Origin: an uncultured Peptococcaceae bacterium
GTDB lineage: Bacteria; Bacillota; Peptococcia; Peptococcales; Peptococcaceae
Reading direction: 5' to 3'
Length of the DNA stretch: 33,364 nt
NCBI GenBank assembly: GCA_949743265.1
Contig: CATJSX010000056.1
Coordinates: 1 to 33,364, forward strand
Within the stretch, counting starts at the first letter, position 1, and each line of letters opens with the position of its first letter. Under the pieces are notes generated by a model. It saw nothing but the letters and a program-made list of their open reading frames with translations, searched no databases and was not told the DNA's origin. This document shows positions 17,076-24,860 of this stretch, piece after piece. The translations under genes were made by a program, and so were the position numbers.

Positions 17076-18974
17076 ATGCAGTTTTTAGACAAAATCAAAT
17101 CACCGCAAGATCTGAAAAGGTTAGATCTAGCAGCTTTGAAAGTATTTTCACATGAAATTCGTCAAAAATTGGTGGAAGTAACTGCCCAAAATGGCGGTCA
17201 TTTGGCACCTAATCTCGGCGTTGTAGAACTTTCATTAGCTTTGCATTACGTCTATCAAACACCAGAAGATAAAATTATTTGGGATGTCGGGCATCAGGCT
17301 TATGTGCATAAAATGCTTACCGGTAGAAGCGATGAACTGAATACCATCAGACAATATGGGGGATTATCAGGATTTCCTAAGCGCAGCGAAAGTGTTCACG
17401 ATGCTTTTGGCGCAGGGCACAGCAGTACGTCTATTTCAGCGGCGGTTGGTTTTGCACTTACCCGTGATTTGCGGGGCGAAAACCATCAAGTTATAGCTGT
17501 TATTGGCGATGGGGCCATGACAGGTGGCATGGCTTTTGAAGCGCTTAATAATATCGGTCATTTGCAGCGGCGTATGATCATTATTTTGAATGACAACGAA
17601 ATGTCCATTGACCCTAATGTCGGCGGTATGAGCGAATATTTGAATCGTGTTCGCAGTGATCCGTCTTATATCAAACACAAAGAAGATATTGAGTTATTAT
17701 TTAAAAAAATTCCTACGATTGGCGATAAAATGTTTCAAGCGGCAGACCGATTGAAAGATTCGTTAAAATATTTATTAGTACCCGGCACTTTTTTTGAAGA
17801 GTTGGGGCTAAAATATTTTGGACCTGTTAATGGGCATGATTTATCAGCATTGATCAATGTTTTGGAAAACACCAAAAAGCTCAACAAACCCATCTTTATT
17901 CATGTTGTTACACGTAAAGGCAAAGGATATGCGCCGGCAGAAAAAACGCCTGACCTTTTTCATGGGGTCAGTCCTTTTGATATTAAAACTGGTCAAGTGT
18001 TAGCTCCAAAACGTCGTCCGACTTATACTGATGTTTTTGCTGATACGCTTATTCAGCTTGGCGAACAAGACGAGCGGGTATTAGGGATTACTGCCGCTAT
18101 GGGTCAAGGTACCGGTATCAACAAATTTGAGCAACGTTTTAGTCAGCGCGCTTTTGACGTAGGAATTGCTGAACAGCATGCAGTTACTATGGCAGCGGCA
18201 ATGGCATTAGACGGTTATAAACCGGTAGTGGCTATTTATTCGACTTTTTTGCAGCGTGCTTATGATCAAATTGTTCATGATGTTGCTTTGCAGAAAGCGC
18301 CAGTTGTTTTTGCCTTGGATCGTGCTGGATTAGTGGGTGATGATGGGCCTACTCATCATGGCGTTTTTGATTTGGCTTATTTGCGTCATATTCCTCATAT
18401 GGTGGTTATGGCACCAAAAGATGAAAATGAGTTGCGTCATATGCTTTACTCCGCTCTTTGCTATGAGCAACCGGCGGCTGTTCGCTATCCGCGTGGCGAA
18501 GGTTTAGGCGTGCCGCTTGATGAAAAGCTGACGCTCTTGCCATTGGGTAAGGGGGAAATTCTTCAGCAAGGGCAAACCGTTGCTTTATTGGCATTGGGTG
18601 CTATGGTGACGATAGCGCAACAAGCGGCAGAATTATTACATCGGTTATACGGTTTGACGGTAACGGTAATCAATGCTCGCTTTGTCAAACCTCTTGATGA
18701 AGCGTTGCTCCTTGAACAGCTTAGCCGCCATCAACTAATGATTACTATTGAGGAACATATTTTAGCTGGTGGCTTTGGCGCAGCGGTTTTGGAAATGCTT
18801 AGTGAACACGGTGCAGAAACACAAAAAGTTTGTCGTATCGCTTTGCCTGATGAATTTATTCCGCATGGCAAAACGGAAATATTAAAAGAAAAATACGGCT
18901 TATGTGCTGAGAACGTCGTACAAGTTGCAGTTGAAAAATTAAATTTGCAAAAAGAAGCCGAGGGATTGTCATGA
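17076..18974 (+). CDS. dxs: 1-deoxy-D-xylulose-5-phosphate synthase
   Basis: Dxs joins pyruvate and glyceraldehyde 3-phosphate with thiamin diphosphate as cofactor, the first step of the non-mevalonate isoprenoid pathway. The 632-residue protein has WDVGHQAYVHK (69-79), the cofactor motif GDGAMTGG (144-151) with FEALNN, the transketolase pyrimidine domain with DVGIAEQHAVTMAAAMA, DRAGLVGDDGPTHHG, and a C-terminal transketolase domain. Start ATG 17076 follows AAGAAGGGGG. The stop codon overlaps tlyA by ATGA. Its need for thiamin diphosphate links it functionally to the thiM-thiE operon upstream, though nothing suggests shared regulation. Confidence 0.97.
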   Translation: MQFLDKIKSPQDLKRLDLAALKVFSHEIRQKLVEVTAQNGGHLAPNLGVVELSLALHYVYQTPEDKIIWDVGHQAYVHKMLTGRSDELNTIRQYGGLSGFPKRSESVHDAFGAGHSSTSISAAVGFALTRDLRGENHQVIAVIGDGAMTGGMAFEALNNIGHLQRRMIIILNDNEMSIDPNVGGMSEYLNRVRSDPSYIKHKEDIELLFKKIPTIGDKMFQAADRLKDSLKYLLVPGTFFEELGLKYFGPVNGHDLSALINVLENTKKLNKPIFIHVVTRKGKGYAPAEKTPDLFHGVSPFDIKTGQVLAPKRRPTYTDVFADTLIQLGEQDERVLGITAAMGQGTGINKFEQRFSQRAFDVGIAEQHAVTMAAAMALDGYKPVVAIYSTFLQRAYDQIVHDVALQKAPVVFALDRAGLVGDDGPTHHGVFDLAYLRHIPHMVVMAPKDENELRHMLYSALCYEQPAAVRYPRGEGLGVPLDEKLTLLPLGKGEILQQGQTVALLALGAMVTIAQQAAELLHRLYGLTVTVINARFVKPLDEALLLEQLSRHQLMITIEEHILAGGFGAAVLEMLSEHGAETQKVCRIALPDEFIPHGKTEILKEKYGLCAENVVQVAVEKLNLQKEAEGLS

Positions 18975-19786
18975 CAAAAATGCGATTAGATGCGGCGTTG
19001 GTAGAATTAGGATTAGCGCCAAGTCGCGAAAAAGCTAAAGCATTGGTAATGGCCGGTTTGGTACTGGTTGGCGACCGCAAGATTGACAAAGCCGGCACAA
19101 CAGTCGAGGTCAATTCAGCTATTCATGTATTGGGTCAAAAGCCGCCTTATGTAGGGCGAGGTGGCTTAAAATTGGCAAGAGCTATTGAAACTTTCAATCT
19201 AAATTTTCATAATAAAGTTGTAGCTGATATAGGGGCTTCTACTGGCGGCTTTGTTGATTGCGCTTTGCAAAACGGCGCAAAAAAAGTTTTTGCTATTGAC
19301 GTTGGTTACAATCAGTTGGATTGGAAACTGCGCAGTGATGAGCGGGTGGTTACTATGGAAAAAACCAATGCTCGTTATCTAAAGCCAGAAGATCTGGGCG
19401 AAATGATGGACATGGTAACAACCGATGTTTCGTTTATTTCTTTGGATAAGATTTTACCGCCTGCCATGGCATTATTAAAAGATGACGGTCAAGTGGTAGC
19501 TTTAATTAAACCTCAGTTTGAAGCAGGCAGAGAACAAGTTGGCAAAAAAGGTGTTATCAAAGATCCTAAGATTCATCAAGAAGTATTAGAAAAAATTTTG
19601 GCTTTATGTGATGAGCTTGATTTGCATATTAACGGCATGACTCATTCGCCAGTGAAGGGCGCAGAAGGTAATATTGAATATTTGCTATGGGGCAGTAAAC
19701 ATTTACCGTCTATAGCAATCGATACAGCCGCAATCGTCAATAAAGCTCATGAATCATTGAATACTGTCAAAACAGATCCGTTCTAG
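18971..19786 (+). CDS. tlyA: TlyA family rRNA (cytidine-2'-O)-methyltransferase
   Basis: TlyA proteins methylate ribose 2'-hydroxyls in 16S and/or 23S rRNA. The 271 residues consist of an N-terminal S4 RNA-binding domain (residues ~4-60, RLDAALVELGLAPSREKAKA) and an FtsJ/RrmJ-like methyltransferase domain with the SAM loop VVADIGASTGGFVDCAL. The K-D-K-E set appears as VGRGGLKL, TTDVSFISLDKI, ALIKPQFEAG and EGNIEYLLWG. It overlaps dxs by four bases. Members of this family were once called hemolysins; the methyltransferase call is better supported. Confidence 0.95.
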   Translation: MTKMRLDAALVELGLAPSREKAKALVMAGLVLVGDRKIDKAGTTVEVNSAIHVLGQKPPYVGRGGLKLARAIETFNLNFHNKVVADIGASTGGFVDCALQNGAKKVFAIDVGYNQLDWKLRSDERVVTMEKTNARYLKPEDLGEMMDMVTTDVSFISLDKILPPAMALLKDDGQVVALIKPQFEAGREQVGKKGVIKDPKIHQEVLEKILALCDELDLHINGMTHSPVKGAEGNIEYLLWGSKHLPSIAIDTAAIVNKAHESLNTVKTDPF

Positions 19787-19831: not shown

Positions 19832-20350
19832 GTGCAAAGAACTGATCTTTTTATCTGGGGTATTTTTATAGGAATTTTATTCGCTTATATTATCAGTCGT
19901 AAATACAAACGCTATAAAACGAAAAAAATACTCAAAAAAGCGAAATTAGCTGAAAGAAAAGCAGTAGTTTTGTTGAAAAAATGGGGCTATCATGTGTTAG
20001 ACGTCCAGTTAAAAGAAACAGTAACCATTTATATCGACAATAAACCTCACAATTGTCCTGTGAGAGCTGATCTTTTGGTGCGACGAGGATGGAAAAGATA
20101 TATTGTAGAGGTCAAAACAGGTGCGCAAACACAAGCGACTTTACCTAATGTACGCAGACAGCTATTAGAATATTATTTAGTTTACAAACCAGATGGAATT
20201 CTTTTGTTGGATATGGAAAAGGAGCAGCTGAAAAAAGTAAATTTCACTTGCACTGGCACAGCGCATAGTTCAATAAAGCCTTTGATACTAGCTATTATGA
20301 TAGGAATTTGTTTGGGATATGGCTTGTTGAAAATTTTAGGCGGGAGATAA
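19832..20350 (+). CDS. Membrane-anchored PD-(D/E)XK nuclease-like protein
   Basis: A protein of 172 residues that I cannot assign to a named family. It starts at GTG 19832, six bases after GGAGGTG; the frame is open to 19817. Residues 6-21 form an N-terminal membrane helix followed by a very basic stretch, and residues ~150-169 form a second helix at the C-terminus. The middle reads like a PD-(D/E)XK core: E41 in a first helix (AERKAVVLLKKWGYHVLD), D80 in RADLLV, E93-x-K95 in YIVEVKTG, and Q110-x3-Y114 in RRQLLEYY. That order and spacing match RecB- or resolvase-like nucleases. It lies 45 bases after tlyA and 3 before nadK, near recN and xseAB. Nuclease activity is inference. Confidence 0.75.
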   Translation: MQRTDLFIWGIFIGILFAYIISRKYKRYKTKKILKKAKLAERKAVVLLKKWGYHVLDVQLKETVTIYIDNKPHNCPVRADLLVRRGWKRYIVEVKTGAQTQATLPNVRRQLLEYYLVYKPDGILLLDMEKEQLKKVNFTCTGTAHSSIKPLILAIMIGICLGYGLLKILGGR

Positions 20351-20353
20351 ATC

Positions 20354-21277
20354 ATGAAGGAAATTGGAACGATTGGTTTGATTTTAGATACTAATAAAGA
20401 GGGGTGCCTCACTATTGGTCAAGCCGCCATTAGCTGGTGTATGGCTCATGCAATTATGGTTTTGGTTTTAGAAAACGAAGCCGGTGCTTTGGGATTATCA
20501 GCTTGTTCTACAGACGATTTTGCGCAAAATGTTGATTTTGTGTTGGTCATCGGTGGCGATGGCACGTTTTTACGAGCGGCTAGAACAGTTTATGGTTATA
20601 ATAAACCGTTATTGGGCATCAATCAAGGCTATTTGGGTTTTTTAACAGAAATTGAACTAGAACATATAGCAGAAACCAATGATTATTTGGAGAAAATTCT
20701 CAATGAGCAATATACTATCGAAAAACGAATGATGTTGACTGGTGAAGTATGGCGTAATGGACGCAAAATCACTCAGTTGACAGGGCTGAATGACTTGGTC
20801 ATTACCAAAGGAGCGCTTTCTCGTTTGATATCGCTGGAAATTTATCAAGAGAATGGTTTGGTCGATCACTATCTTAGCGATGGCGTTATTTTTTCAACCC
20901 CTACTGGATCTACTGGTTATTCTCTTTCAGCGGGTGGTCCTATTGTTTATCCTAATTTTGATTTGTGTGTTCTGACACCGATTTGTCCTCATACGCTTTC
21001 GGCTCGACCAATTATTTTTCCACCGGAAGCGCTGTTGAAAGTGAAACTAGGTACGGATAATTTTCAGGCAATGCTTACCGTTGATGGTCAATATGGACTG
21101 GAATTAGAAAATGGCGATGAAATTTTGATTAGCAAAGCCAAAGACTATACTTATTTGATCAAAATGAAAGAACGTCATTTTTTTCATTTAATGCGGGAAA
21201 AATTAAAAGGAACGAACGGTAATAAATATAGCAAAAAAACGGAAAGGAAAACCCATGAAAACAAGACGACATCGTAA
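20354..21277 (+). CDS. nadK: NAD kinase
   Basis: NadK phosphorylates NAD to NADP. The 307-residue protein has the GGDG motif at 67-70 (LVIGGDGTFLRAAR), GINQGYLGFLTE, the LNDLVITKG strand, and the diacylglycerol-kinase-like STPTGSTGYSLSAGGPIV. Start ATG 20354 follows GGCGGGAG. The C-terminus has a Lys/Thr-rich tail beyond residue ~288 that runs 23 bases into argR. This tail looks unstructured and is longer than in most relatives. The overlap with argR suggests translational coupling. Confidence 0.96.
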   Translation: MKEIGTIGLILDTNKEGCLTIGQAAISWCMAHAIMVLVLENEAGALGLSACSTDDFAQNVDFVLVIGGDGTFLRAARTVYGYNKPLLGINQGYLGFLTEIELEHIAETNDYLEKILNEQYTIEKRMMLTGEVWRNGRKITQLTGLNDLVITKGALSRLISLEIYQENGLVDHYLSDGVIFSTPTGSTGYSLSAGGPIVYPNFDLCVLTPICPHTLSARPIIFPPEALLKVKLGTDNFQAMLTVDGQYGLELENGDEILISKAKDYTYLIKMKERHFFHLMREKLKGTNGNKYSKKTERKTHENKTTS

Positions 21278-23546: not shown

Positions 23547-24860
23547 GTGTCCAAAGGCTTCAAAATCAAAACGGTTACATGGTCAATGATTCTTTTTGGC
23601 GTATTTTTGCTGATGCTGCCGTTCCTTCAACCATTAGAACAAAATGTGCGGGTAGGCGATACACTGGAATTAGCGCTCAATTATCCCGAAAAAATGGTAG
23701 AACAACTGAAGATCAACATTTCCGACCGAGATGGTATTTTAGGGTTGGCTGAAAGTCAAACGGCCGCAGTTAATCTGATTGATCAAGAAACATTGACTTA
23801 TCTTCAGCCCGGTGAAGTTAGTCTCAGTTTGCGGCTGTTTGGATTGATTCCAGTCAAGCAAATTGACGTCAATGTTCTGCCGGAACTATCGTTATATCCC
23901 GGCGGCCAGCCTGTGGGAATTTTGCTGCGTACAGACGGTATTATGGTAGTAGGAATGTCGCCGGTGCTTGATGATGAAGGCAAAAGCCGTTTTCCTGCCG
24001 AAAAAGCAGGTATTAAAGTTGGCGATATCATTCAAAAAGTTAACAACGTGACGGTCAACAATGATGAAAAAATGGCGATGCTGATTGATCAACTAGGTCA
24101 AAACCATGAAGAAATTACACTGGAAGTTTTACGTGAACAAGAGATTATCTACAAAAAAATCGAACCGGTTTATTGTACAGAAAGCAAAACTTACCGCATC
24201 GGGCTGTATGTTCGTGACAATGCCGGTGGCGTGGGAACACTGACGTTTATCGATCCAGTAACTAAGCAATACGGTGCTTTAGGCCATATGATTGCCAATA
24301 ATGAAACACAAGAAAAACTTAATATTTTAAACGGCAAATTGGTCAGCGCTAATATCGAAGGCATTAAAAAAGGTCAGCGTGGCTATCCCGGTGAAAAAAT
24401 CGGCGGTTTTGCTAATGATAACAGTTTGGGCACCATTGAAAAGAACACTTATGCAGGAATATTTGGCGTTTTAAAAAATTTATCAATGACGGAAAACAAT
24501 TATTACGACAAGCCGCTGCCAGTAGCGTATTACCCAGAAATAGAATTAGGACCGGCTACTATTTTGACAGCTTTAGAAGGTCAAAAAGTAGAAGCTTTCA
24601 CTATTGCAATTGAAAAAGTTATGCCCAATGGAGAAAATGGCAAAGGTATGGTCATCAAAGTTACTGATCCCATTCTCTTGGAAAAGACGGGAGGAATTAT
24701 TCAGGGCATGAGCGGCAGTCCTATTATCCAAAACGGCAAGATTATCGGCGCAGTAACTCATGTGTTCATTAACGATCCCACAAAAGGCTATGGGATTTTG
24801 ATTAGCGATATGCTAAGCGAGGTTGGTTTGATTGAAGACGATATTGAAAAATCTGCATAA
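23547..24860 (+). CDS. spoIVB: SpoIVB serine peptidase
   Basis: SpoIVB is a PDZ-containing S55 peptidase, secreted from the forespore in Bacillus, where it triggers the SpoIVFB-sigma K checkpoint. This protein is 437 residues from GTG 23547, nine bases after GAGGGAG. Residues 9-28 are a membrane or signal segment. A PDZ domain covers ~125-205 (GIKVGDIIQKVNN). The catalytic set is present: H247 in GALGHMIAN, D374 in KVTDP and S389 in QGMSGSP, followed by GAVTHVFINDPTKGYG. It therefore looks active. In spore formers spo0A normally follows; here the next gene is the leftward ygiQ. The 120-base gap after recN shows no promoter I could defend. Confidence 0.95.
   Translation: MSKGFKIKTVTWSMILFGVFLLMLPFLQPLEQNVRVGDTLELALNYPEKMVEQLKINISDRDGILGLAESQTAAVNLIDQETLTYLQPGEVSLSLRLFGLIPVKQIDVNVLPELSLYPGGQPVGILLRTDGIMVVGMSPVLDDEGKSRFPAEKAGIKVGDIIQKVNNVTVNNDEKMAMLIDQLGQNHEEITLEVLREQEIIYKKIEPVYCTESKTYRIGLYVRDNAGGVGTLTFIDPVTKQYGALGHMIANNETQEKLNILNGKLVSANIEGIKKGQRGYPGEKIGGFANDNSLGTIEKNTYAGIFGVLKNLSMTENNYYDKPLPVAYYPEIELGPATILTALEGQKVEAFTIAIEKVMPNGENGKGMVIKVTDPILLEKTGGIIQGMSGSPIIQNGKIIGAVTHVFINDPTKGYGILISDMLSEVGLIEDDIEKSA

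Follow-up and report, generated by a model that had tools for sequence, protein, structure and literature searches.

PD-(D/E)XK folds, familiar from DNA nucleases, occur also in RNA-cutting and in non-cutting proteins. Several described families resemble the protein reported here, X, which is encoded in the window (the whole stretch of DNA analysed, 33,364 nucleotides from an uncultured Peptococcaceae bacterium). Exonucleases of the RecB/Cas4 clade (Cas4 SSO0001, AddAB, AdnAB) share with X the order D, E-x-K, QhxxY, and the core of X reaches a TM score of 0.67 to SSO0001; mutating the D, E, K, Q or Y that match these motifs abolishes or nearly abolishes cutting by Cas4 proteins (PMC4176176, PMC3466216). 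X departs from this clade in having no iron-sulfur cysteines, helicase or CRISPR context, in its predicted membrane anchoring and in the YraN-like A-E-x2-A ... GY motif of its N-terminal helix. The helicase-associated, resolvase-like YraN/UPF0102 proteins align with X over the first helix and the E-D-E-x-K/R columns, but they are soluble and lack the long E41-D80 beta hairpin, the QhxxY motif and the membrane helices.

Other relatives are alike in architecture. The mostly archaeal, YraN-like COG4741 proteins consist, as X does, of an N-terminal membrane helix and a minimal PD-(D/E)XK core, which prediction places in the cytosol (PMC1189080); the two are compared and set apart by description alone, COG4741 having one anchor as described and no known tlyA-nadK locus. 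RmuC also combines an N-terminal membrane helix with a PD-(D/E)XK core (PMC1189080), but it is a different family of about 475 aa with long coiled coils. SmdA of Staphylococcus, a cell division protein that needs its membrane helix, joins this single helix to a NERD-like domain devoid of several conserved residues (PMC9040797). Its N-out helix and its cytoplasmic PD-(D/E)XK-like domain, from which key residues are absent (PMC9040797), recall those X homologues that have lost the active site (hereafter lost-site), whereas its length (302 aa), single anchor, monocistronic gene beside metK and restriction to Staphylococcaceae do not. TP1 of the virus TTV1 is a Cas4-derived nucleocapsid protein that has lost its active site and is proposed to bind DNA (PMC4625639); it shares with lost-site X a RecB/Cas4-type core without an active site, but is viral, soluble and the outcome of a single event. 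SmdA and TP1 are precedents for the non-catalytic use of an X-type core proposed below. Literature searches found no description of the X locus.

The X gene and its product

X lies on the + strand between tlyA, commonly annotated as an rRNA methyltransferase family gene, and nadK. Its reading frame starts with a GTG at 19832, just 3' of a GGAGGT ribosome-binding site, and stops at 20348-20350; the in-frame ATG further upstream (19817) shares bases with the ribosome-binding site and is a less likely start, probably not used. The features are:

18971..19786, + strand: tlyA, directly upstream of X (same position in 97 of 126 homologue loci)
19832..20350, + strand: X gene, predicted membrane-tethered PD-(D/E)XK protein, 172 aa, GTG start (open reading frame and orthologues)
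19841..19897, + strand: predicted N-terminal membrane helix, residues 4-22 (hydropathy 1.94; model)
19898..19945, + strand: basic stretch, residues 23-38, after the first membrane helix (sequence)
19928..20242, + strand: predicted alpha-beta-beta-beta-alpha-beta core, residues 33-137 (models and Foldseek)
19952..19954, + strand: E41, predicted active-site glutamate of the first core helix (99% of complete versus 25% of incomplete homologues)
20006..20008, + strand: Q59, conserved and tracking the active-site set (99% of complete versus 6% of incomplete homologues)
20069..20071, + strand: D80, predicted metal-binding aspartate at the RecB motif II position (aligns with the catalytic Asp of Cas4 SSO0001)
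20108..20116, + strand: E93-V-K95, (D/E)XK half-motif, RecB motif III (conservation, profile alignment)
20153..20173, + strand: R108-R109-Q110-L-L-E113-Y114, or RRQxxEY (R108, R109, Q110 and Y114 in 100% of complete homologues)
20273..20338, + strand: predicted C-terminal membrane helix, residues ~148-169 (model and hydrophobic segment)
20354..21277, + strand: nadK, downstream of X, starting 3 bases after its stop (directly downstream in 108 of 126 loci)

An original prediction, made from the letters of this DNA, had picked out E41, D80, E93-x-K95 and Q110-x3-Y114 in RecB-like or resolvase-like order; coordinates and conservation agree with it. The catalytic aspartate of SSO0001 matching D80 is D99 (PMC3466216). 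RRQxxEY consists of the RecB/Cas4 QhxxY motif (Q110 at 20159-20161, Y114 at 20171-20173) plus two arginines and one glutamate. The conserved Q59 did not figure in that earlier list of residues.

Fold and superfamily

With the 81-sequence alignment described below, AlphaFold2 modelled the full protein at a pLDDT of 93.8 and the isolated core at 91.6, in the order H-E-E-E-H-E. The structure check named in the original prediction thus returned exactly the alpha-beta-beta-beta-alpha-beta fold expected there. The model comprises a helix (3-50), strands 54-68, 71-85 and 88-95, a helix (105-118), strands 122-127 and 132-136, and a last helix (148-169); in it, the first membrane helix and the first core helix appear as one continuous helix, 3-50. 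When the isolated core was searched with Foldseek, the best PDB match was Cas4 SSO0001 (E 7.6e-6, TM 0.67), followed by Argonaute-associated Cas4 proteins, AdnAB and AddAB entries, Hjc and UPF0102. The X profile retrieved Cas4 4ic1 (E 0.004) and Hjc 1gef (E 0.024), and in the alignment to 4ic1 its D, E-x-K and QxxxY columns line up with those of Cas4. By hhalign, X matched true YraN at 95.6%, with E41, D80, E93 and K95 falling on the YraN E, D, E and R, and Cas4 at 7%, an uninformative value since the Cas4 side of this comparison consisted of four divergent sequences only. Single members of the 81 sequences matched the PDDEXK_1, Cas4, UPF0102, NERD, PDDEXK_3 and Hjc models at E 1e-5 to 1e-3. 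The superfamily assignment was made by profiles and structure, single-sequence searches being weak: the window protein alone scored 15.9 bits against PDDEXK_3 in Pfam (cut-off 22) and, as a single-sequence query of the PDB, gave no meaningful match.

Membership of X in the PD-(D/E)XK superfamily, as originally proposed, is strongly supported by the profiles, AlphaFold2, Foldseek and the hhalign comparison to YraN. Because YraN columns and Cas4 motifs both align, X combines a YraN-like first helix with a RecB/Cas4-like set of motif II, motif III and QhxxY.

No curated family claims the window protein, and the X family is without a name in Pfam, NCBIfam, PHROGs and PADLOC. The earlier remark that no named family has this layout agrees with the searches, in which the window protein reached no curated cut-off in Pfam or NCBIfam and X matched PADLOC and PHROGs only at E 0.03 or worse. 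UPF0102 (Pfam) did not appear among the matches of the window protein up to E 10, and the NCBIfam YraN model scored it at 17.2 bits against a cut-off of 124; on X of three relatives UPF0102 gave 20.6-21.4 bits, under its cut-off of 23.6. Searched with UPF0102, the source genome yielded true YraN only, on another contig and separate from X. On the strength of these scores, the membrane helices and the separate true YraN, X was rejected as a YraN/UPF0102 member. It is worth recording that the true YraN of certain Clostridia (L111:1462-1821, L152-L170) has E-x-R (FVEVR) against the E-x-K of the superfamily, the R being invariant in 15 aligned sequences.

No Cas4 match was obtained for the window protein; one X orthologue from a search of 40 genomes lay just over the Cas4 cut-off (23.8 versus 22.7 bits). 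Conserved cysteines for an iron-sulfur cluster, of which Cas4 has four, are absent from the 81-sequence alignment. NERD PF08378 gave no match on the window protein and matched 34 of the 81 members at E <=0.1 (best 9e-5).

Distribution and conservation

A single-protein search with X found orthologues in 31 of 60 related genomes. Among 30 aligned X proteins, the window's included, at least 90% retain E41, D80 and E93, and none lacks K95. Genome contigs first scanned with X alone gave no match; an alignment query of GTDB genomes returned 167 X-related places, of which 80 were kept and, with the window protein, form the 81-sequence alignment. The 80 homologues come from Bacillota, Atribacterota and Myxococcota and from records labelled Planctomycetota, Spirochaetes, proteobacteria and Saccharicrinis. 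The Spirochaetes-labelled L095 is almost identical to the Atribacteria contig L089 at TlyA, NadK and X, and is probably mis-binned or misnamed. Across the alignment G52, Q59, K95, R108, Q110, E113 and Y114 never vary, and at least 90% of the sequences keep E41, D80 and E93, a motif conservation that is far from chance.

In a phylum-wide sample, X was matched in 71 of 299 genomes, nearly always as one copy per genome. Forty loci from this search, mostly lower-scoring homologues, were added to give 126 distinct homologues. No X match was found among 72,556 plasmid and 50,697 phage records, and no defence family matched with any weight; a mobile-element or defence origin was rejected on these grounds. 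X is a vertically kept chromosomal gene and not a mobile defence gene.

Genomic context

In 90 of the 126 loci tlyA lies directly upstream and nadK directly downstream of X, and where nadK is directly downstream the median gap between X and nadK is about 0 bases. This placement between tlyA and nadK holds for nearly all sampled Bacillota and Atribacterota, and where other genes separate tlyA from X, as in some families, these have no relation to one another or to DNA. Ten loci from other phyla (L079, L081, L082, L087, L098, L101, L103, L106, L108, L110) have no tlyA or nadK beside X, and the neighbours of loci outside Bacillota and Atribacterota include no common partner of X. Just upstream of X in the Saccharicrinis record, L108:5049-5888 looks, by eye only, like a secreted DNA/RNA non-specific endonuclease gene.

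recN and xseAB are found near X in the window, and the original prediction had drawn on this as a DNA repair cluster. That argument has proved weak, the homologues in the Myxococcota, Planctomycetota and Bacteroidota records lying outside any such cluster. The neighbours of X give no clear pathway, since nadK and tlyA are not DNA-end genes. A spoIVB-like gene (window 23547-24860) follows recN as in other spore formers, and spo0A, usually next, is on another contig. A strict sporulation link was rejected: Spo0A is very common (256 of 299 genomes), and two genomes with intact X (G003, G014) have no Spo0A match.

Membrane helices and orientation

An N-terminal hydrophobic segment is present in 122 of 126 homologues and both ends are hydrophobic in 104. 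The helices originally placed at both ends are thus borne out in X as hydrophobic segments at residues 4-22 and ~148-169, but 19 of 126 homologues lack the C-terminal one. Some of the proteins without it are catalytically complete (L034, L035, L086, L102, L110), which indicates that the second anchor is dispensable. The two membrane helices are no fixed pair in the family, a minority having the N-terminal anchor only.

The 15 residues after the first helix carry a mean net charge of +6.2 in catalytically complete homologues, and this positive charge predicts an N-out topology and a cytoplasmic core. By the positive-inside rule, the basic stretch that follows the first membrane helix of X would accordingly lie on the cytoplasmic side, and the second helix would return the chain to the outside.

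Recurrent loss of the active site

Conservation of D80, E93 and K95 among orthologues, on which the original prediction was to be judged, is found in part: 94 of 126 homologues retain all three, counting either D or E at 93, and the other 32 do not, a proportion that is no estimate of frequency, the added homologues having been chosen largely for low scores. The losses are concerted. Of K95 and Q110-x3-Y114, 95 homologues keep both, 28 have lost both and 3 are mixed, and Q59, E41, R109 and E113 follow the same pattern, whereas the structural positions L48, G52, Y53, Y90 and G122 are equally kept in complete and lost-site classes. Intermediates also occur: L129 to L131 and L151 keep E93 and RR...EY with K95N and Q110R, and L141 has lost E41 alone.

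The lost-site proteins match complete X by hhalign at 99.9% (E 8.7e-36, 168 columns) and by this profile comparison are true homologues; the residue-by-residue alignment of the most divergent members is uncertain because the proteins are short and deeply diverged. Of the 32 lost-site genes, 31 adjoin tlyA or nadK and the remaining one has tlyA 341 bases off, and 29 of the 32 proteins retain the N-terminal hydrophobic segment. In three large genomes of 6-7 Mb (L123, L125, L126), lost-site X stands between tlyA and argR, with nadK absent from the stretch taken. Wherever pairs can be measured, the lost-site genes show purifying selection, with NG86 dN/dS of about 0.06-0.23 where dS is usable; in other pairs dS is saturated.

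A tree of TlyA and NadK, in which X was not used, requires at least six changes of active-site state, a parsimony minimum on a quick tree; three are forced by well-supported branches. Grouping all lost-site genomes as a single clade is rejected on this tree (p-AU 7.7e-62). Two cases are clear: within one family the lost-site L137 stands next to the complete L148, and the lost-site L029 stands next to complete members from neighbouring families. We read the changes as losses because regain of nine residues is implausible. Active-site loss in this family is therefore concerted and recurrent and not one event. Because the losses are clustered, recurrent and affect the whole motif set, we read them as secondary inactivation and not as evidence against the nuclease assignment. 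This repeated silencing at a fixed locus is a new point, absent from the original prediction.

Proposed role of X

Based on the frame, fold, motif set, conservation, synteny, concerted and repeated loss and purifying selection obtained computationally above, we propose X as the founding example of an unnamed family: a membrane-tethered, cytoplasm-facing, metal-dependent DNA nuclease with a second, non-catalytic role. We regard this combined reading as moderately probable; cutting activity, DNA substrate, pathway, orientation, co-expression with nadK and second role are its inferred parts. Both ends of X would cross the cytoplasmic membrane and leave the nuclease core inside, and a complete RecB/Cas4-type site on a membrane-held cytoplasmic core is most simply that of a metal-dependent DNA nuclease. 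The predicted site (E41, D80, E93, K95, Q110, Y114), with Q59, R109 and E113 as probable helpers, would bind Mg or Mn and cut DNA, most likely ends, flaps or branched structures next to the membrane. Such cutting would be a housekeeping activity, X being made together with NadK. In its second role, the core may act at the membrane by binding DNA or a partner; the retention of the protein and its place after the active site is lost suggests such a role, and slow decay or lineage-specific reuse could fit this persistence as well. It is possible, though we hold it to be less probable than the foregoing, that X is in essence a conserved module, built on a nuclease fold, that docks DNA or a partner handling DNA at the membrane, this being the essential and ancestral role, with cutting an option that was switched off independently several times.

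The alternatives differ mainly in what they make of the two classes of homologue. Were X a plain membrane-anchored housekeeping nuclease for DNA repair or end processing, its single chromosomal copy, in a vertically kept place in housekeeping surroundings close to recN and xseAB, and the complete active site of 94 of 126 homologues would be as expected, and lost-site copies would be decaying or reused. These copies, however, persist in whole families at the dN/dS values given above (0.06-0.23 where dS is usable) and retain fold residues, N-terminal membrane helix and place; as for decay, too many frames are intact, with an internal stop in only a few sampled homologues. We therefore find a plain repair nuclease without a second role unlikely. 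At the other extreme, X might be no nuclease anywhere, its fold binding nucleic acid or division proteins at the membrane as SmdA may do (PMC9040797). The many lost-site orthologues would suit this, but 94 of 126 homologues keep the full RecB-type catalytic set, which moves as one unit, and a pure binder would have no need of K95, Q110 and Y114; a protein that is non-catalytic throughout is hence improbable.

Two further readings concern the substrate. The original prediction had suggested degradation at the membrane, perhaps of incoming DNA, and a membrane tether on a nuclease core would suit DNA uptake or defence against foreign DNA, as would the analogy with COG4741, described as a possible 'membrane-associated guardian against foreign DNA' (PMC1189080). 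None of the results points to uptake, and degradation of incoming DNA is unsupported: the place of X is a fixed housekeeping one, its closest gene partner is nadK, and no uptake gene is nearby. Co-occurrence with competence was rejected as uninformative because ComEC is near universal (283 of 299 genomes, against 71 of 299 for X). With no match on the plasmid or phage records and no weighty defence-family match (DruK at E 0.039), a role in uptake or defence seems very unlikely. A membrane ribonuclease or nucleotide-cleaving enzyme would give meaning to the link with nadK and tlyA, nadK being the most constant neighbour (108 of 126 loci), and Cas4 SSO0001 does slowly cut RNA with Mn (PMC3466216). 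Yet the RecB/Cas4, AddB, Hjc and YraN relatives of known activity act on DNA and the top Foldseek matches of the core are DNA enzymes, so that we give this last reading the slimmest chance.

Implications

The X family is present in about a quarter of the genomes sampled from the phylum (71 of 299), and also in several further phyla, yet is unnamed. The Pfam and NCBIfam libraries would never connect its lost-site copies in other genomes with nucleases, and recognising the family would provide an annotation for many 'hypothetical membrane proteins' between tlyA and nadK. The question of which job of a membrane-held nuclease fold survives repeated loss of its active site is thereby made testable. 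Beside SmdA, X is a second and much wider family, which could reveal whether this fold serves generally to link nucleic acid to the membrane. If the docking reading is true, the X family would be a natural experiment in the passage from enzyme to scaffold at one fixed locus.
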